Shown piece after piece: positions 47,867 through 55,940 of a stretch of 64,000 bases of DNA. A program made the translations under genes and the position numbers. How positions within the stretch are numbered: position 1 is the first letter of the stretch; every line of letters starts with the position of its first letter. Location of the stretch: NCBI RefSeq assembly GCF_900188485.1, contig NZ_FZPH01000001.1, forward strand, positions 186,001 to 250,000, written 5' to 3'. This stretch comes from Asanoa hainanensis (GTDB taxonomy: Bacteria; Actinomycetota; Actinomycetes; Mycobacteriales; Micromonosporaceae). The notes below the pieces were generated by a model. It was given only the letters and a program-made list of their open reading frames with translations, was not told where the DNA came from and searched no databases.

Positions 47867-49297
47867 GTGGGGGTGAGTGGCACGACGGCGGAGCCCCTCG
47901 GCGGGCCCGACCCGTCGACCACCGCGCGATGGCTGGAAAGCCACCGCCCCGACCTGCACCCCGCCTACCTGCGCGAGCTGCCCGCGGCCCGTGCCGCGAT
48001 CCGGCACCGCCTGGTCACCGCGATCGCCCGCGAGCACCTGCGGACGCCGTCCCAAACCAGTCAAGATCCAGCCGAGATCCTGCGCGCGGCAGGCCACGAA
48101 AGCTTCGCCGCCGAGGTCGACAACAGCGTCGCCAACCTCGCCCTAGCCCAGGCCACCCAGCCGCGCCCCGACGGCGGCCCCCCGGCCCTCACGAGGCCGA
48201 CCCCACCGCACTGGGAGCAGCTCGTCGTCGACGGCCACCCGCTGCACCCCGGCTGCCGCACCCGCACCGGCATGACCACCGCGGACGTCCTCGCGTACGC
48301 GCCCGAGCACCGCACCGTCGTCGACCTCGTCCAGGTCGCCGTGCCCGAGCACCGCTGGCACACCACCGGCGCGGGCCTGCCGCCGCTGCTGCACCTGCAC
48401 CCCTGGCAGGCCGCCCGGATCGACGACGCGGACCTGCGCCGCGTCGGCACCCGCCGAGCACGGCCGCTGATGTCGCTGCGCACCCTGGCCCCGCTCGACG
48501 ACCCGACCGTGCACCTCAAGACCGCGATCGACGCCCAGCTCACCAGCGCCGTGCGCACCGTCTCCCCGGCCGCCGTCGAAAACGGACCGAACCTGACCGC
48601 ATTACTGCAGGACCTGACCCAAAACCTCACGATCCTGCGCGAGTACGCCGCCGGCGCCGTCCTCACCGACGGCCGCCCCGACCGCCGCCTCTCCGTCCTC
48701 CACCGCCAGGCACCACCACCGGAGGCCATCCCCGTCGGAGCCCTGTCCGCGCCGTCACCGGCCGACGGTGCGCCCCTCGCCCGCGAAGCCGTCCGCCTCG
48801 CCTACAACGGCGACCCAAGAACGTTCCTGGCCGACCTGACCCGCCTGCTCGTACGAGGCCCCCTGGAGCTCCTCGACCGCGGTATCGGCCTCGAAGCGCA
48901 CGGCCAGAACACCCTCGTCACCCTCCACCACGGACGCCCGGCCACCCTCTACTACCGCGACGTCGGCGGCATCCGCGTCGACCCGAAACGCCTCGAGCAC
49001 ACCGGCGTCACCCCGCCGCCCCTGCACGGCGACCTGACCGCCACCGACCCCGACGAGCCCGAGACGACCGTCCTGGCCGCCCTCACCGTCGTCTTCGGAC
49101 AGCTCGTCGGCACCCTCGCCGGCGCCACCGACACCGACCCCGCCCACCTGTGGGCCGCCGTCGCCCGCACGGCCGGCGACCTGCTCACCCACCGCGACAC
49201 CCTGCCGATCAAAGCCACCACCACCATGCGCCTGGCCGCGGACCCCCTGGAGCCCCGCTGGGCGTACGTGCCGAACCCGCTCCTGGAGCACCGGTGA
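47867..49297 (+). CDS. NIS siderophore synthetase (IucA/IucC family), first copy
   Basis: The 476-aa protein has the canonical NIS motifs: VDGHPLHPGCRTRTGM (the GHPxHP...R motif), LHLHPWQAARI, HLKTAIDAQLTSAVRTVSPAAVENGPNLTALL and GIGLEAHGQNTLVTLHHGRPATLYYRDVGGIRV. It adenylates a carboxylate, usually citrate-derived, and couples it to an amine or alcohol. It is shorter than the usual 580-620 aa. Starts at GTG 47867 or 47873 are both possible; the latter fits leaderless spacing. It is the first gene of an iron-box-controlled operon. Confidence 0.92.
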   Translation: MGVSGTTAEPLGGPDPSTTARWLESHRPDLHPAYLRELPAARAAIRHRLVTAIAREHLRTPSQTSQDPAEILRAAGHESFAAEVDNSVANLALAQATQPRPDGGPPALTRPTPPHWEQLVVDGHPLHPGCRTRTGMTTADVLAYAPEHRTVVDLVQVAVPEHRWHTTGAGLPPLLHLHPWQAARIDDADLRRVGTRRARPLMSLRTLAPLDDPTVHLKTAIDAQLTSAVRTVSPAAVENGPNLTALLQDLTQNLTILREYAAGAVLTDGRPDRRLSVLHRQAPPPEAIPVGALSAPSPADGAPLAREAVRLAYNGDPRTFLADLTRLLVRGPLELLDRGIGLEAHGQNTLVTLHHGRPATLYYRDVGGIRVDPKRLEHTGVTPPPLHGDLTATDPDEPETTVLAALTVVFGQLVGTLAGATDTDPAHLWAAVARTAGDLLTHRDTLPIKATTTMRLAADPLEPRWAYVPNPLLEHR

Positions 49298-50886
49298 ACA
49301 GCGATCTCGACCACGCCGCCAGGCACACCGCGCAACGCCTGAACCGGGTCGCGCCCGCGCTCGTCGGGCCGTTCCGCGACGCCCTCCCGCACGCCGCCGC
49401 CGTTGTCGGCCGGCGCCTCGCGGGCGCCCTCTACCGGGAGGACATCGGCGACGCCCGCGACCGGTTCGCCGGCCTCGGCCGCCGCCACGGCTTCGACCGC
49501 CTCGAGGTCGACAAGCTCGACGACCTGCCCGCCGGGCCCGCCGCCCTGCTCCCACCGGGCCTGCCCGGCGCCGGGAACCTCGCCGAGGAGCTCACCGACG
49601 CCACCGTCAACCTCGCCCTCGCGTACGCCCGGGTGCGGCCGCCCGACCCCGGCGCCGACCCCGACGCCCGCGCCCTGGCCTACGAGCGCCTCGCGATCGA
49701 CGGACACAACCTGCACCCGTGCGGCCGCACCCGCCTGGGCTGGGACACCGCCGACACCCTCCGCCACGACGTCGAAGCCGGCACGACCACGGTCGCGTTC
49801 GTCGCCGTACACCCGGACCTGCACGTCGGAGACGACCTCGGCGCCACCCTCGCCGACCTGTACGACGACGCACCGCGCGGCCACCACGTCATACCCGTGC
49901 ACCAGTGGCAGCGCGACACCGTCCTGCGCCACCGCTACCGGGAGCTCTACGAAGAGGGCCTGCTCCGCGACGTCGACGGCACTCTGGCCGCCGCGCCCAC
50001 CGCCGCCGTCCGCACCCTGCTGCTCCCACCGGCCCGCGACGGGCACCGCCGCTACCTGAAGCTGTCCCTCGACATCCAGGTCACCTCGACCCGCCGCAGC
50101 ATCTCCACCGCCAGCACCCGCAACGGCCCGGCGATCTCCGCGCTCCTGCACAAGCTGCTGGCAGAGGACCCGACCGTCCTGCTGCTCGCCGAGACCGCCG
50201 GCACCGCGATCAGCCCCGGCACCGGACGGGACGGCTCGGCCATCCTCCGTGACGGCCTCGACGGCCACCTGGCGGACAACGAGACCGCCATCCCGGGAGG
50301 CGGCCTCACCGCCGGGGACACCCTCGAAAGGCTCGTCGAACCCGGAGCGGGCAACGCCCTCCGCTTCGTCGGCGACTACGCCCGCCTGCTCCTGCCACCC
50401 GTGGTCACCCTCGCCGCCCGCCACGGCATCGCCCTCGAAGCCCACCTCCAGAACTGCCTGCCGACCTTCGTCGACGGCCGCCCGCACCGGATCGTCTTCC
50501 GCGACTTCGCCGGCCTGCGCATGTACCTGCCGCGCCTCGCCGACCCGCCACCCCTGTGGCCCGGCTCCGTCATCGCCACCGACGACGTCGACGTCATGCG
50601 CGCCAAGCTCGGCTACACCGCCCTGCAAGCCCACCTCGGCGAGCTCGTCGTGCGCCTCACCGAATCCCACGACCTCGACGAGGACCGCGCCTGGCGGGCC
50701 ATCCGCGACGCCCTCGACGAGGCGTACGAGCCGCTGCTGTCCGACCCGGCCAGCGCCGCCGCGGCCCGCGCCGACCACGCCGCCCTGACCGCACCCACCG
50801 CCGCGCACAAAGCACTCGTCCGGATGCGGCTCGCCGGCCACGGCGACCGCTACGTCCCGGTGCACAATCCGCTACATGATCCCTGA
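49294..50886 (+). CDS. NIS siderophore synthetase (IucA/IucC family), second copy
   Basis: The 530-aa protein has IDGHNLHPCGRTRLGW, IPVHQWQRDTVL, KLSLDIQVTSTRRSISTASTRNGPAIS, GIALEAHLQNCLPTFVDGRPHRIVFRDFAG and VRMRLAGHGDRYVPVHNPL, all standard NIS signatures. It is coupled to the first synthetase by GTGA, so the pair probably perform two sequential condensations of one siderophore. It differs from the first in the GHPxHP motif (GHNLHP). Confidence 0.92.
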   Translation: MNSDLDHAARHTAQRLNRVAPALVGPFRDALPHAAAVVGRRLAGALYREDIGDARDRFAGLGRRHGFDRLEVDKLDDLPAGPAALLPPGLPGAGNLAEELTDATVNLALAYARVRPPDPGADPDARALAYERLAIDGHNLHPCGRTRLGWDTADTLRHDVEAGTTTVAFVAVHPDLHVGDDLGATLADLYDDAPRGHHVIPVHQWQRDTVLRHRYRELYEEGLLRDVDGTLAAAPTAAVRTLLLPPARDGHRRYLKLSLDIQVTSTRRSISTASTRNGPAISALLHKLLAEDPTVLLLAETAGTAISPGTGRDGSAILRDGLDGHLADNETAIPGGGLTAGDTLERLVEPGAGNALRFVGDYARLLLPPVVTLAARHGIALEAHLQNCLPTFVDGRPHRIVFRDFAGLRMYLPRLADPPPLWPGSVIATDDVDVMRAKLGYTALQAHLGELVVRLTESHDLDEDRAWRAIRDALDEAYEPLLSDPASAAAARADHAALTAPTAAHKALVRMRLAGHGDRYVPVHNPLHDP

Positions 50887-52012
50887 CCGGGTCGCGGCGG
50901 CCCTGCGCGAAGCCCAGCGGCCCGTCTGCGCCTACGTCTACGACCCGGCCGTCGCCACCGACCGGATCACCGCCCTGCGCGAAGCCCTCCCGGCAGGCAC
51001 CCGCGTCCTCTACGCCGTCAAAGCCAACAGCAACCCCGACCTCGTACGCGAGATCGCCCGACACGCCGACGGCCTCGACGTCGCCTCCGGCGGAGAGCTG
51101 GCCCTGGCCCGCGACACCCACGCCAAGGAGATCGCGTTCGCCGGACCCGCCAAGACCGACGCCGAGCTCGCCGCCGCCGTCGACGCCCACGCGATGATCC
51201 ACGTCGAGAGCGCCCACGAGCTGCGCCGCCTCGCCCACATCGCGGGCGGACGACCCACCCGGGTCGCCCTGCGGGTCAACCGGGCCGCCGACACCCCCAG
51301 CGGCACCCACCGCATGACCGGCACACCCACCCCGTTCGGGATCGCCGAAGAAGACCTCGACACACTGCCCCGCGACCTGCCGATCAGCGGCTTCCACCTC
51401 CACGCCGTCTCCAACAACCTCGACGCCGCCGCCCACGCCGCGTTCATCGACGACGCCGTCACCTGGTCCGTCGCGACCGCGCGCCGCCTCGGCATCGACC
51501 TGACCTACGTCAACGCCGGCGGCGGCTTCGGCATCGACTACACCGGCGACACCACCTTCGACCTGAGCCGCCTCCGCGTCAGAAACCCACCGGAAGGGGT
51601 CACCCTCGCGGTGGAGCCGGGCCGCTGGATCGCCGCCGACACCGGCTGGTACGCCGCCGAAGTCATCGACCTCAAACGCAACCACGGCCGCTGGTTCGCC
51701 GTCCTCCGCGGCGGCACCCACCACTTCCGGCTACCCGCCGCCTGGGGCTACAGCCACCCCTTCACCGTGCTGCCCGTCGACGACTGGCCCCACCCGTACC
51801 CCCGCCCGGAGGTATCGAACGTGGACATCGACGCCACCGGAGAGCTCTGCACCCCCCGCGACGTCCTCACCCGCGGCCAACACGTCGACCACCTGCGCGT
51901 CGGCGACGTGCTCGTCTTCGCCCGCACCGGCGCCTACGGGTGGGACATCTCCCACCACGACTTCCTCACCCACCCGTACCCGGAGGTGACGGTCCTGAGC
52001 CCCGTGGGTTAG
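50876..52012 (+). CDS. PLP-dependent decarboxylase (group IV, SbnH/PvsE-like)
   Basis: The 378-aa protein is an alanine-racemase-fold PLP enzyme: RVLYAVKANSNPDLVREI contains the PLP lysine (Lys49), followed by GLDVASGGELALARD, VNAGGGFGIDY, and the C-terminal GELCTPRDVLTRGQHVDHLRVGDVLVFARTGAYGWDISHHDF carrying the catalytic Cys. Relatives make diamines for staphyloferrin B (SbnH) and vibrioferrin (PvsE). It overlaps the second synthetase by 11 nt, so it is in the same operon and probably supplies or modifies the amine building block. Confidence 0.92.
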   Translation: MIPDRVAAALREAQRPVCAYVYDPAVATDRITALREALPAGTRVLYAVKANSNPDLVREIARHADGLDVASGGELALARDTHAKEIAFAGPAKTDAELAAAVDAHAMIHVESAHELRRLAHIAGGRPTRVALRVNRAADTPSGTHRMTGTPTPFGIAEEDLDTLPRDLPISGFHLHAVSNNLDAAAHAAFIDDAVTWSVATARRLGIDLTYVNAGGGFGIDYTGDTTFDLSRLRVRNPPEGVTLAVEPGRWIAADTGWYAAEVIDLKRNHGRWFAVLRGGTHHFRLPAAWGYSHPFTVLPVDDWPHPYPRPEVSNVDIDATGELCTPRDVLTRGQHVDHLRVGDVLVFARTGAYGWDISHHDFLTHPYPEVTVLSPVG

Positions 52013-52021
52013 CGTCGCCCC

Positions 52022-52819
52022 GTGACGCCAACCATCCTGCGCTCCGGCCGCCACGTCCACACCGGACGCCGCCTCGGCCAGGTGATCGGCCGCAAACCCA
52101 CCGGCGTCACCGCCGGCCAGTGGAACACCGCCGCCAACGTCGTCGTCCACTACCTCGTCACCGACCCCGACACCGACCGGCCCGAGTTCGCCCTGCTCTT
52201 CACCCCCGCCGCGGACACCAAGGTCGCCCGCATGACCACCGCCGTCTGCGACGCCGTCGGCCTGCCCCTGCTGCGGATCACCTCACCGACCCTCAGCGCC
52301 GCCGAGAACGGCACCCAGATCATCGGCTACATCCTCGACGCCCGGGCCTACGGCGCCGACGCCGACTTCGGCGGCTACCGCGACATCGTCGGCCGCCTCC
52401 CCGACGGCCGCACCGGCTACGTCAACGACCTCTCGTCCGTCGCCCGCGCCACCGCCGTCGACGCGTACGCCGCCCGCCAGCTCTTCGACCCCATCATCCG
52501 CGGCATCCGCGTCCACTGGACCGGCGGACCCGCCGAAGGCTGGGCCTGGCTCCAACTCCACGAAGGCGGCTACGTCTTCGAACGCGTCCAGCTCGAAGAG
52601 CACCGCACCACCTGCGGCGTGCCCGCCGACCGGCTCGCCGAAGACCTCGCCGGCGCCGCCATCGGCCAACGCCTCAAACTGCGCCACAGCGCCCAGCCGG
52701 ACCTCGTCGACCTCGCGACCATCGAGGCCCGGCTCCGGGAGCTGTCCGCACGCCGCGACGACCTCGTCGACGGCTTCCCCTACGAACACCTGCTCGCCGA
52801 CCAGCCCGCCGCCCGGTAG
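52022..52819 (+). CDS. Unknown protein next to the siderophore operon (DUF2726-like segment)
   Basis: The 265-aa protein is not recognised with confidence. Residues about 45-90 (PEFALLFTPAADTKVARMTTAVCDAVGLPLLRITSPTL) have the strand-helix-PLLRI shape of DUF2726/restriction-endonuclease-like domains, but the usual catalytic Asp/Glu-x-Lys residues are not clear. The C-terminus is helical. TAGCGT (52010-52015) sits at leaderless spacing from the GTG, so it has its own promoter despite following the decarboxylase by 9 bp. No exporter or receptor gene follows. Confidence 0.75.
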   Translation: MTPTILRSGRHVHTGRRLGQVIGRKPTGVTAGQWNTAANVVVHYLVTDPDTDRPEFALLFTPAADTKVARMTTAVCDAVGLPLLRITSPTLSAAENGTQIIGYILDARAYGADADFGGYRDIVGRLPDGRTGYVNDLSSVARATAVDAYAARQLFDPIIRGIRVHWTGGPAEGWAWLQLHEGGYVFERVQLEEHRTTCGVPADRLAEDLAGAAIGQRLKLRHSAQPDLVDLATIEARLRELSARRDDLVDGFPYEHLLADQPAAR

Positions 52820-52835
52820 AACGGCGCCCGTCGGC

Positions 52836-54914
52836 TCAGCCCGCCGCCCGATAGGCCGTGCCCATCGGTGTCAACTGGCCGCTCTCCTTGTAGAGGCCCG
52901 TGTGGCTGTCACCCGTCGACGGCAGGCCGAACCACGAGTAGCGCTCCACGTACGACAGGCCCTCGAGCATGTCCGTCGCACCGTTGATGAACGCCACCTG
53001 CTGCGCGTCCGTCGGATAGTGCGCACCCGACCCGTCGAACCGGATCAGGGCGAACTCCGTCAACCAGATCGGCAGCCCGTACTTCGCGTGCACCTGCTGG
53101 ATGTAGCCCTTCAGCTGCCCCACGGCCGCCGACGAGAAGTCACCCCCGTACCAGTGCAGGGTGATGAAGTCGACCCGGTAGCCCTTGTCCTTCGCCCCCT
53201 TCATGAACGTGTCCAGCCACTTGCCCGAGTCAGCCGCGCCGAACGCCACCGACGGGCTGCCCAACCGCATCCCCGTCGCCTGCAGCTTCGGCCACAGCTC
53301 CAACGCCTTCGCCGGCGTCATGTTGGCCTGCTCGGCCATATCCGGCTCGTTGAACCCCAGCAGCGTGTCACCCTCCCGCTTCGCCTGCGCGAGAGTCGAG
53401 TCCGTCGCGTTCGCCGTGCCCCAGATCATCGGCACGAACTCGACACCCGACGCCGGCATCCGGTCGTTGTTGGCGCCCCAGTTGTAGTACCACGAGGCTC
53501 CGACAGCTTTCAGGCCCGCGCTCACCTTCGGGAAGTCCCAGACCGCCGCACCCTTCTTCTTCGTCGTCCCGGTCGGCGGCAACGGCGCCTTCGCCGGCTT
53601 CTTCACGGGCGGCTTCGCGGTGGGCGAGACCGTCGCCGACGGCACGGCCGTCGGACTCGGCGTCGCATCAGGGGATACGAGCGGCGACGCGCTGACGCTC
53701 ACCGGAGGCAACACCGCCGCGGCGGGCACCGCGTCCCCGTTGTTCCGGACCACGCCGAACGTGACCACCGCCGCCGTCGCCACCGCGACCGTCGCGACCG
53801 CGGCCGCCACCGGCTTGCTGATCAGGAACCCCTTCACCAACCAGCCCGCACTCTTGGCGGCAGTGCTCGCGGCCCCCACGGCACCGGAGCCGCCTGCCCC
53901 CGTGGCAGCGGCCCCCACACCCGTCGAGGCGGCGCCGCCGCCCAGGCCCGGCATCGCCGCCGTCGCGGCCGCCTCGGCACCCCAAGCACCCGCGGCGGTG
54001 CTCCCGGCGCCCGCGGCGGTGCCTCCCGCTCCGGCTGTCCCGGCACCGGTCCAGGCGGCCGCACCGCCGGTCGCGGCCGTCCAGCCCGCGCCACCGATCG
54101 CACCGCCCACCGCACCACCGGCGGCACTGATCGAAGCCGCCACCAGGCCCGCGGCCGGCGCGACCAGGCCGATGCCCGCCAGCAACCGCTCCGCCGCCAC
54201 AAGCTGCTCCGACGCCGGCCCGCAGTACGCGCACTCCCGGATGTGCCGGGCCAGCCGCTTGCGCCACAACGCGTCCGGATGCCCGGACCAGCCCACCAGA
54301 ACCCCGACGAGCTCCGGGCAGCGCGGACGACTCGACAACGCCCGCACCACCGTCCGGGCCGTGTCGAGGGTCGCCTTCATCCGCTGGACACGTACCGCCG
54401 CGTGCTGGTTCGTCACCCCCAACGACTGCGCCAGCTCGTCCCGGGTCAGCTCGCCGGAGGTCTCCAGCCACCACAGCGACAGCAGCTCCTGGTCGTCCTG
54501 GTCGAGCCACCTGGTCGCCTCGACGACCTCACGCCGCTGACCGGACAGCTCCAGCCGAAGAATCGTCAGGTTCGCGAAGTCCGCCGCCGGGTCCGTCACG
54601 TCGTCGGTGCCGGGGTAGCCGAACTGACCGGCCTGCCGCGCGCGATAGGGGTCCGCCTGCCGGTCCCGCACCTGCCGCACCGCGATCGCGACCAGCCACG
54701 CGCGGAAGCTCGCCGGGTCGCGCAGCCCCCGCAGCCCCGTGACACAGCGCAGCATCGTCTCCTGCACCACGTCGTCGACGTCGGCGTGCCCGTCGAGCGC
54801 GCGTCCGACGACGTTGTAGACCAGCGGTAGGTATTCCGCCACGAGCCGTTCGACCGCCCGCGGATCACCGTCCTGAGCGGCGAGCACCAACGCCCGCTCG
54901 TACCCTTCGCGCAT
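52836..54914 (-). CDS. ECF sigma factor-zinc finger-TM-GH128 glycoside hydrolase fusion
   Basis: One 692-aa polypeptide joins a sigma factor to an extracellular enzyme. Residues 5-58 are sigma region 2 and 125-185 region 4 with its HTH (ELTRDELAQSLGVTNQHAAVRVQRM). His224-Cys228-Cys231 form an HxxxCxxC zinc finger, 250-355 is Gly/Ala-rich, 368-389 a membrane helix, 400-455 a Pro/Thr/Lys linker. Residues 457-692 form a GH128-type (Asl1) beta-glucanase with the two acid residues Glu523 (LGFNEPD) and Glu620 (WLTEFAL). The sigma part would be cytosolic and the hydrolase outside. GGAGAGG precedes the ATG at 54914. Confidence 0.9.
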   Translation of the reverse strand: MREGYERALVLAAQDGDPRAVERLVAEYLPLVYNVVGRALDGHADVDDVVQETMLRCVTGLRGLRDPASFRAWLVAIAVRQVRDRQADPYRARQAGQFGYPGTDDVTDPAADFANLTILRLELSGQRREVVEATRWLDQDDQELLSLWWLETSGELTRDELAQSLGVTNQHAAVRVQRMKATLDTARTVVRALSSRPRCPELVGVLVGWSGHPDALWRKRLARHIRECAYCGPASEQLVAAERLLAGIGLVAPAAGLVAASISAAGGAVGGAIGGAGWTAATGGAAAWTGAGTAGAGGTAAGAGSTAAGAWGAEAAATAAMPGLGGGAASTGVGAAATGAGGSGAVGAASTAAKSAGWLVKGFLISKPVAAAVATVAVATAAVVTFGVVRNNGDAVPAAAVLPPVSVSASPLVSPDATPSPTAVPSATVSPTAKPPVKKPAKAPLPPTGTTKKKGAAVWDFPKVSAGLKAVGASWYYNWGANNDRMPASGVEFVPMIWGTANATDSTLAQAKREGDTLLGFNEPDMAEQANMTPAKALELWPKLQATGMRLGSPSVAFGAADSGKWLDTFMKGAKDKGYRVDFITLHWYGGDFSSAAVGQLKGYIQQVHAKYGLPIWLTEFALIRFDGSGAHYPTDAQQVAFINGATDMLEGLSYVERYSWFGLPSTGDSHTGLYKESGQLTPMGTAYRAAG

Positions 54915-55054
54915 CGCACCTCTCCTTGAAGCCGCCCCATCGTGGCGCACAGGAGACGACCGGGGCGACGGCGGGATAACACAATTAAGGGATCCCTAGG
55001 ACTTCCGCGACCGTGCGTAGCGCCATCGGCGCTGGCTTGTCATCGCGACTGGCC

Positions 55055-55081
55055 GCACACCCTGTAAGGCGTCCTAGGATG
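55055..55081. repeat. 27-bp motif, copy 1 (near arginase stop)
   Basis: This stretch, containing CACACCCTG, TAAGGC and the core CCTAGGAT, is identical at 25 of 27 positions to 56788-56814. It lies 141-167 nt upstream of the sigma-GH128 fusion start and includes the stop codon of the arginase-family gene. It may be a promoter or operator for the fusion. Confidence 0.65.
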
Positions 55082-55940
55082 CGAGGTTGGCGATCAGGTC
55101 GGCCCGGATGGCGGCGTCCTGGTCGGAGGCCGCCGGATGCCAGGGGCAGGCCACGTCGAGCGCCACGACCCGACCGGTCGCCATGACCCGCCGGACGGCC
55201 GCGAGCACGGCCTCCGTAGAAGGGCCGTGCGGCGCCGGGAAGAGCAGCCCGGGCAGCTCAGCGGCGTCGATCACGTCCACATCGACGTGCAACACCAACG
55301 GCCCGTCCGGCAGGTCAGCCGCGTCGGCACCCGGCCTCCACGGACGGGCCGGGGCGGCTCCGGCCGCCAGCGTCCGCGGACCGGCCAGCGGCAAGGCTGT
55401 GTCCGGCATGCGCGGGCGAGCCACGGCGTCGACGACGACCCGGGCGGGACCGTCGGTGGCCAGGTAGGTGGCCTCGGCCGGGTCGAGGTCGCGGGCGTCC
55501 ACGAGGAGCGCCTGGTCCGTTGTGAGCGGCCGCAGGCCGAGCGGGACGGCGACCAGGTCGGCGTGCGCCCCCAGGAGCAGCCGCAGCGACAGGCCGCCGA
55601 GGTAGCCGGAGGTCGTGGTCTCCAAAGTGTGCACGTCGCCGTGGGCGTCGAACCAGACGACGCCGGCGTCGATCCCGGCCCGCTGCACGCCGGCGACGGT
55701 GCCGAGGGCGACCAGGCAGTCGCCGGAGACCACAGTCGGGATCGCGCCCGCGCTGACCTCGGCTGCCACCCTGTCCGCCACGGCGCTGTGCAACGCGGTG
55801 AGCCGGTTCCAGACGGTGCCGTCGGGCAGGACCGGCTCAAGGGTCTGCGCGCCCTCCGGGACCGGGAGATGCCCGTCGGCGAGCCGCTCGTCCTGGTGGA
55901 AGGGAACGTGGAGGGTCGGCACGCGGTGCGGCCTACCCAC
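55074..55940 (-). CDS. Arginase/agmatinase-family (ureohydrolase) protein
   Basis: The 288-aa protein has the manganese motifs of the ureohydrolase fold: SGDCLVALG (in place of GGDHS), VVWFDAHGDVHT (DAHxD) and VLHVDVDVID (DxD). It should hydrolyse a guanidino compound, but the first motif lacks its usual His (GDC), so metal binding or specificity may differ. The GTG at 55940 overlaps the preceding gene by 8 nt, indicating an operon with the 96-aa protein. Confidence 0.85.
   Translation of the reverse strand: MGRPHRVPTLHVPFHQDERLADGHLPVPEGAQTLEPVLPDGTVWNRLTALHSAVADRVAAEVSAGAIPTVVSGDCLVALGTVAGVQRAGIDAGVVWFDAHGDVHTLETTTSGYLGGLSLRLLLGAHADLVAVPLGLRPLTTDQALLVDARDLDPAEATYLATDGPARVVVDAVARPRMPDTALPLAGPRTLAAGAAPARPWRPGADAADLPDGPLVLHVDVDVIDAAELPGLLFPAPHGPSTEAVLAAVRRVMATGRVVALDVACPWHPAASDQDAAIRADLIANLAS

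Follow-up and report, generated by a model that had tools for sequence, protein, structure and literature searches.

A Sigma Factor Fused to a GH128 Domain

The window analyzed here, a 64,000-nucleotide stretch of the 8.64 Mb genome of the soil bacterium Asanoa hainanensis (contig NZ_FZPH01000001.1, positions 186,001 to 250,000), carries a gene that joins an extracytoplasmic function (ECF) sigma factor, an anti-sigma-like zinc-binding segment, and a glycoside hydrolase family 128 (GH128) domain in one uninterrupted frame of 692 codons (table 1). An initial annotation of this DNA had placed the limits of the gene correctly, leaving its strand (minus) unstated, and had read the product as a single polypeptide with sigma regions 2 and 4, an HxxxCxxC zinc finger, and a GH128-like domain. 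Pfam and NCBIfam searches bear this out: Sigma70_r2 matches aa 24–85 (E value 1.2e-12), the NCBIfam model sigma70-ECF (TIGR02937) matches aa 20–183 (E value 9e-20) and passes its own cut-off, which identifies an ECF sigma factor with regions 2 and 4, and Glyco_hydro_cc (PF11790, GH128) matches aa 472–688 (E value 2e-55). Region 4 receives no separate Pfam score; it falls within the stretch covered by the NCBIfam model, and the structure model described below shows it as helical.

The fusion is not a chance event, because the same architecture is found in 23 more named loci from other genera and in all six Asanoa genomes, where the frame has no internal stops; in two of these six the search match was split into two pieces of one open frame, which was then aligned whole. 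A locus named as A. ishikariensis shares 96% identity in its sigma part. A frameshift between the sigma and hydrolase halves, or another artifact, is ruled out as the origin of the fusion by the single frame and its retention in all six genomes. GC content at the third codon position is 0.83–0.94 across six 115-codon blocks of the frame and exceeds that of the other two positions in five blocks; in an Ala/Gly-rich block (aa 231–345), GC by codon position does not discriminate. An upstream GTG at 54950 was rejected as the start because it lies only two bases past the −10-like element (54952) and would hardly be in the transcript, and the ATG has a ribosome-binding site (RBS). A scan of 52700–55100 for general sigma-70 promoters and terminators returned neither.

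Table 1. Features of the sigma–GH128 gene of Asanoa hainanensis, in window positions
Feature	Position	Strand	Remark
Complete fused gene, 692 aa	52836..54914	minus	ATG at 54914, stop at 52838-52836
Promoter-like bipartite motif, TGTTATCC-N15-CGTCTCC	54952..54981	minus	37 nt between motif end and ATG
RBS-like GGAGAGG	54919..54925	minus	Seen in the sequence; same in all six Asanoa upstream regions
ECF sigma domain, regions 2 and 4, aa 20-183	54366..54857	minus	Sigma70_r2 at aa 24-85
Anti-sigma-like zinc-binding segment, aa 191-262	54129..54344	minus	Bounds set in the present analysis
HxxxCxxC, aa 224-231	54222-54245	minus	H224, C228, C231
First hydrophobic stretch, aa 244-262	54129..54185	minus	Probably no membrane span
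Predicted membrane helix (second hydrophobic stretch), aa 371-389	53748..53804	minus	
Pro/Ser/Thr-rich linker, aa 393-452	53559..53738	minus	Evolving fast
Predicted GH128 subgroup-I endo-β-1,3-glucanase domain, aa 453-692	52839..53558	minus	
Glu523	53346..53348	minus	Counterpart of AmGH128_I E102
Glu620	53055..53057	minus	Counterpart of AmGH128_I E199

The GH128 Domain and Its Active Site

An AlphaFold model of the protein was built on an alignment of 29 GH128-type sequences and has a mean predicted local distance difference test (pLDDT) score of 66; the score falls below 50 at aa 94–124 and 248–460, and the sigma, zinc-binding, and GH parts are mostly above 70. The closest solved relative of the outside domain is AmGH128_I of Amycolatopsis mediterranei (6uaq), which shares the GH128 subgroup-I fold and both catalytic glutamates (56% identity, root-mean-square deviation 1.7 Å, template modelling [TM] score 0.92 by target length), although what was solved is a GH128 protein of 263 residues that lacks a sigma part. 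At weaker E values (about 5e-4 to 2e-3), and in between other glycosidases, Foldseek matches the model to ECF sigma factors from structures that include an anti-sigma factor, namely CnrH, SigW-RsiW, AlgU-MucA, and RpoE-RseA.

Glu523 and Glu620, the candidate catalytic residues of the initial annotation, align with the residues mutated in AmGH128_I crystals (E102A in 6uat; E199A/Q in 6uas/6ufl). Both are invariant in all 29 GH128-type sequences, as are N522, H587, W475, W479, W588, and F662, and position 558, which by our reading of the alignment is the equivalent of the +2 subsite Y137 of AmGH128_I (PMC10956234), is aromatic in 27 of them. An NEPD pattern, of which E523 is a part, served for the initial choice of these sequences; counting by Pfam, without the pattern, gives an equal number, 26 of 86. 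Across the 15 pairs of Asanoa proteins, the ratio of nonsynonymous to synonymous substitution rates is 0.15 in the GH128 domain, 0.17 in the sigma domain, and 0.78 in the linker or stalk, and mean amino acid identity is 0.94, 0.89, and 0.71 (stalk), respectively. The GH128 domain is thus under purifying selection and is the best-kept part of the protein among Asanoa. By its best match, the predicted domain belongs to subgroup I, the endo-β-1,3-glucanase type, and it is probably still catalytically active, as judged from these residues.

A Family of Sigma Fusions with Different Outside Domains

A scan of species genomes with the sigma part yielded at least 402 relatives among at least 598 pattern matches, and the 80 best of these relatives were retained; the family counts given here rest on these. 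Together with the A. hainanensis protein and five Asanoa paralogues they make up the 86 proteins scanned for domains, among which Pfam identified Sigma70_r2 in all 86, CAP (cysteine-rich secretory protein) in 34, GH128 in 26, and AbfB in 7. Eight sequences cut by contig ends were excluded from the type and topology counts, and HxxxCxxC is present in all 87 uncut family sequences. The CAP label was given by exclusion to 35 proteins, including one outside the 86-protein set (L170); Pfam gives 34 for that set as a total. The domain was shown individually for L042 and L047, and the others are among L031–L110.

In five of the six Asanoa genomes, AbfB takes the place of GH128 on paralogous sigma–zinc finger–membrane proteins (L002:1156-2550 in the same genome as the sigma–GH128 gene, for which AbfB was shown individually, and L011, L012, L014, and L015). 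Actinoplanes philippinensis has five members of the family, one of them with a right-handed β-helix as the outside domain (L178:1387-3543). A further outside domain, conserved and unnamed, occupies the C-terminal 180 aa or so of ten proteins (L040, L065, L066, L072, L080, L090, L105, L108, L110, and L167); it had no match in Pfam (three members searched), NCBIfam (one member), or, as a profile, the PDB. When 95 sigma domains are placed on a quick tree, in which 26 of 92 inner branches are weak, and the eight cut sequences are left out of the type labels, the GH128 types fall into two clusters (two changes), and all labels together require ten changes. The sigma chassis thus seems, from these sequences, to have combined with several kinds of outside domain.

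Membrane Topology

The initial annotation had proposed one membrane helix, with the sigma domain inside and the hydrolase outside. All six Asanoa proteins have two hydrophobic stretches, which in A. hainanensis reach mean Kyte–Doolittle (KD) values of 2.09 and 2.23. Among the 29 GH128 types, the first stretch has a mean KD of at least 1.9 only in the six Asanoa proteins and is charged in 16, whereas the second reaches this value in 16 and is uncharged in all. Over the 87 uncut sequences, net charge averages +3.9 over the 20 residues that precede the second stretch and −0.85 over the 15 that follow; the charge is greater before than after in 83, equal in 2, and less in 2, and it is greater before in all 29 GH128 types. 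The stalk that follows is rich in Pro, Ser, and Thr in the three sequences measured. Because of the charge bias and the pattern of hydrophobicity and charge in the GH128 types, we take the second stretch as the membrane span, and for this type the evidence supports a single span with the predicted orientation, sigma inside and GH128 outside on a stalk. The single helix and the orientation of the initial annotation are therefore retained, with the qualification that a second hydrophobic stretch exists in Asanoa.

A Promoter-Like Motif Upstream of the Family

The upstream regions of the six Asanoa genes have TGTTATCC-N15-SGTCTCC in common, 37 nt from the end of the motif to the ATG. With mismatches allowed, 64 of 84 distinct family genes carry the motif in front, as compared with 94 of 8,400 Markov-resampled controls; in its strict form the figures are 40 of 84 and 0 of 8,400. 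Two duplicates (L004 and L007) were left out of this count, and with duplicates included the motif is found at 66 of 86 genes and in 35 of 4,300 shuffles. The spacer is 14 nt in 36 and 15 nt in 17 of 53 clear cases. By type, the motif precedes all 29 GH128 members, which come from several genera, 21 of 34 CAP-labeled members, and 8 of 9 members with the unnamed domain.

The strict motif occurs once in the A. hainanensis genome, at the sigma–GH128 gene. A shorter form finds the sigma–GH128 gene in each of the six Asanoa genomes plus one additional site (G000:C38:6282), which lies antisense within an open reading frame and was taken as chance. It is probable, on this sequence evidence, that the motif marks autoregulation of the sigma–GH128 gene in Asanoa.

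In 23 genomes of GH128-type relatives we found 38 motif matches in 19 genomes and no match to the reversed pattern in any of the 23. Thirty of the 38 sites were read, and Pfam was run on 10 of the proteins behind them: 14 lie before family sigma genes, and the others lie before genes for DUF1996 proteins (5), SARP-type regulators (5), GH16-lectin proteins (2), and an alginate-lyase-like protein (1) or are unclear (3). The DUF1996 proteins, which have an N-terminal hydrophobic stretch, stand right behind the motif in five Actinoplanes-type genomes (L120, L130, L139, L140, and L142). SARP/BTAD-type regulators stand behind similar copies in five Actinoplanes-type genomes (L122, L133, L141, L145, and L147); the assignment comes from Pfam for L122 and from likeness to L122 for the other four. 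The GH16-lectin proteins, with signal-peptide-like starts, are from Actinoplanes palleronii and A. siamensis, and they lend modest support to the connection with glucan made in the initial annotation.

Relation to Known Systems

The general architecture is not new, because predicted GH catalytic domains on some ECF52 and ECF53 proteins are already in print (PMC10766802, crediting Huang 2015 and Pinto 2019), and the groups with a zinc finger, a membrane helix, and a regulatory extension described in PMC8999054 are ECF48, ECF52, and ECF53. The Asanoa protein adds a GH128 case, and the present analysis adds the promoter-like motif. A literature search for a GH128-fused sigma factor returned no title, a weak negative as ECF classification papers lay outside that search, and one for a sigma factor together with DUF1996 returned a single unrelated paper.

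The Asanoa protein has the features listed jointly for ECF48, ECF52, and ECF53 in PMC8999054 (a zinc finger, one or two helices in the C-terminal extension, and occurrence in Actinobacteria), and it resembles ECF53 in combining an actinobacterial ECF sigma factor with a zinc finger, a membrane helix, and a long C-terminal extension (PMC8999054, PMC10766802). However, the extensions of these groups are given as up to 400 residues in PMC8999054 whereas about 500 follow the sigma domain here, and we therefore do not file the protein as ECF53. With the ECF52 member SCO4117 of S. coelicolor it shares the order of sigma domain, zinc finger, membrane helix, Pro-rich stalk, and carbohydrate domain (PMC5826349, PMC8999054), but SCO4117 has a carbohydrate-binding module (CBM) instead of an enzyme and its published motif, CSGYN-17-SRHA, is unlike the present one. 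Membership in ECF52 was rejected: the presumed S. griseus orthologue of SCO4117, which bears NPCBM (L181), is 26% identical over the sigma and zinc-binding anti-sigma part, as compared with 48–96% for the aligned relatives, and is a distant relative. The initial annotation had named carbohydrate-related extensions for both ECF53 and ECF56. This fits the predicted GH domains on ECF52 and ECF53 proteins (PMC10766802) but not ECF56, whose member SigG1 bears a SnoaL_2 domain and no carbohydrate domain according to PMC7730460; SnoaL is not among the seven Pfam families found in the Asanoa protein up to an E value of 1, which sets it apart from ECF56.

A functional parallel is SigI6/RsgI6, in which an extracellular GH10 sensor acts with a sigma factor that is autoregulated and has hydrolases for the same kind of polysaccharide among its targets; sister sensors of RsgI6 include CBM42 (PMC4711584, PMC12203970). 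That system differs in consisting of two proteins with another sigma family and a self-cleaving periplasmic domain, whereas here there is one chain in which no such domain was recognized.

Genomic Neighborhood

Six open reading frames (ORFs) around the gene in the window were scanned, one of them without a match, and no glucan gene was found among them. An arginase-family gene lies upstream of the sigma–GH128 gene. Convergent with the latter, on the plus strand at 47929–52012, are an IucA/IucC siderophore synthetase gene with an FhuF domain and then a pyridoxal-phosphate-dependent decarboxylase gene; the IucA/IucC ORF as called begins with a long N-terminal portion that matches no family.

A Proposed One-Protein Signaling System and Its Alternatives

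We consider it fairly likely that the protein is a one-protein transmembrane signaling system for β-1,3-glucan that works by proteolytic release of its sigma domain. The proposal builds on what the computation shows, namely a conserved fusion, its active-site residues, the bias in charge, and the motif with its placement; from these we infer the ligand, the reading of the motif by the sigma domain, catalysis, and proteolytic release, with sensing and release drawn by analogy from SCO4117, for which proteolytic release has been proposed (PMC5826349, PMC8999054), and from RsgI (PMC12203970). The zinc-binding anti-sigma segment and one membrane helix would hold the ECF sigma domain to the cytoplasmic side of the membrane, while the GH128 domain would stand outside the cell on its disordered Pro/Ser/Thr stalk. 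There it may sense β-1,3-glucan, for example from fungal walls, which it probably still cuts, and contact with glucan would expose the stalk or juxtamembrane region to proteolysis, as is expected for the ECF48/52/53 type. The released sigma domain would then transcribe from TGTTATCC-N14/15-CGTCTCC promoters, that of its own gene first, and this autoregulation would act as positive feedback that also yields more surface glucanase. In Actinoplanes-type genomes, GH16 proteins, DUF1996 proteins, and SARP-type regulators would be further candidate targets. Direct release of the transcription factor by binding or cleavage of glucan, as the initial annotation put it, is too strong a statement, for by analogy a protease step would be needed.

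Several observations weigh against this proposal. The 20 of 84 family genes without the motif comprise 13 CAP-labeled genes, 3 cut by contig ends, 2 with AbfB, 1 propeller-like, and 1 with the unnamed domain, some of which have by eye a near form with GATCTCC; all five Asanoa AbfB paralogues lack the motif upstream; and at all ten S. griseus-clade genes TGTTATCC is in reverse orientation, pointing in the sole case viewed (L050) to a divergent open frame. One-mismatch sites in the six Asanoa genomes (L154–L158) had no convincing downstream gene by ORF listing, and one such site was found with the reversed control pattern too. A glucan regulon rests on other genera, because the Asanoa genomes give no further convincing gene behind the motif, and there GH16 proteins lie behind the motif in 2 of the 23 genomes. 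The substrate of these GH16 proteins is unsettled, as their NCBIfam matches to several GH16 equivalogs (β-glycanases and a carrageenase among them) are all far under the cut-offs. Over the 87 uncut sequences the second hydrophobic stretch is not uniformly strong, with a mean KD of at least 1.9 in 51 as compared with 35 for the first, and the unnamed-domain type reverses this order, with 8 of 9 sequences reaching the value in the first stretch and 1 of 9 in the second. Neither a cleavage site nor a self-cleaving domain was identified in the sigma–GH128 protein, and the region that holds the predicted helix and stalk falls within the aa 248–460 modeled at low pLDDT. Finally, GH128 includes a binding-only subgroup, VII, according to PDB titles, though subgroup I is the best match here, and the GH10 domain of RsgI6 from Clostridium thermocellum binds xylan and cellulose with very low activity (PMC4711584).

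This last precedent calls for caution on catalysis, as intact glutamates prove no enzymatic signaling, and it suggests that the GH128 domain might have kept its fold and cleft for a sensor in which glucan binding gives the signal and cleavage is slow or irrelevant. The presence of AbfB or CAP at the same position in other family members fits such a binding role of the slot. Binding alone, however, does not need both glutamates, which with the neighboring aromatic residues are invariant in every GH128-type sequence, and the domain shares 56% identity with a solved endo-β-1,3-glucanase; we regard a purely binding sensor as possible but on the unlikely side. It is somewhat less likely still that the polysaccharide sensed is the cell's own, from the envelope or spore coat during development, instead of foreign glucan. 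Two precedents make this worth weighing: SCO4117, which has the same plan, governs Streptomyces development (PMC5826349), and the sporangium of Actinoplanes missouriensis has a polysaccharide matrix that is cut by the organism's own glycoside hydrolases (PMC12691653). The solved subgroup-I enzyme, by contrast, is an endo-β-1,3-glucanase by its PDB titles, and two motif sites precede GH16 proteins. Moreover, β-1,3-glucan is not known to us from actinomycete walls, a point at which no search was aimed, and this too counts against an own polysaccharide.

The motif might also be read by a different sigma factor or regulator, so that the sigma–GH128 protein would not be autoregulated. The AbfB paralogues without the motif and the S. 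griseus-clade genes from which it faces away are what this would predict, but its position before every GH128-type gene and most of the CAP-labeled and unnamed-domain members argues the other way and leaves a separate reader improbable. Least likely of all, and in our view very unlikely, is that both hydrophobic stretches cross the membrane, which would leave the GH128 domain in the cytoplasm and thus no external sensor. The two stretches of the A. hainanensis protein are similarly hydrophobic, the first stretch reaches a mean KD of 1.9 in 35 of the 87 uncut sequences and in most of the unnamed-domain type, and ECF48, ECF52, and ECF53 proteins are described with one to two helices (PMC8999054); against two spans stand the GH128 types themselves, in 23 of 29 of which the first stretch falls below 1.9, the positive charge ahead of the never-charged second stretch in all 29, and the Pro/Ser/Thr-rich stalk behind it.

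A bolder form of the glucan-signaling proposal, which we advance only tentatively and think doubtful as a whole, is that of an enzyme-sensor in one chain, in which turnover of glucan, not binding, would free the sigma factor with its own gene as the principal target. The protein would then belong to a plug-in family in which one chassis carries varied outside domains (CAP, AbfB, the β-helix, the unnamed domain, and GH128, the last in two separate clusters of the sigma tree), with a single promoter code in front of many of them. If the proposal is right, a single polypeptide would be receptor, enzyme, anti-sigma factor, and sigma factor for fungal-type β-1,3-glucan. The promoter motif opens the model to a direct reporter test, and the exchangeable outside domains suggest that the family may offer a ready chassis for one-protein transmembrane sensors.

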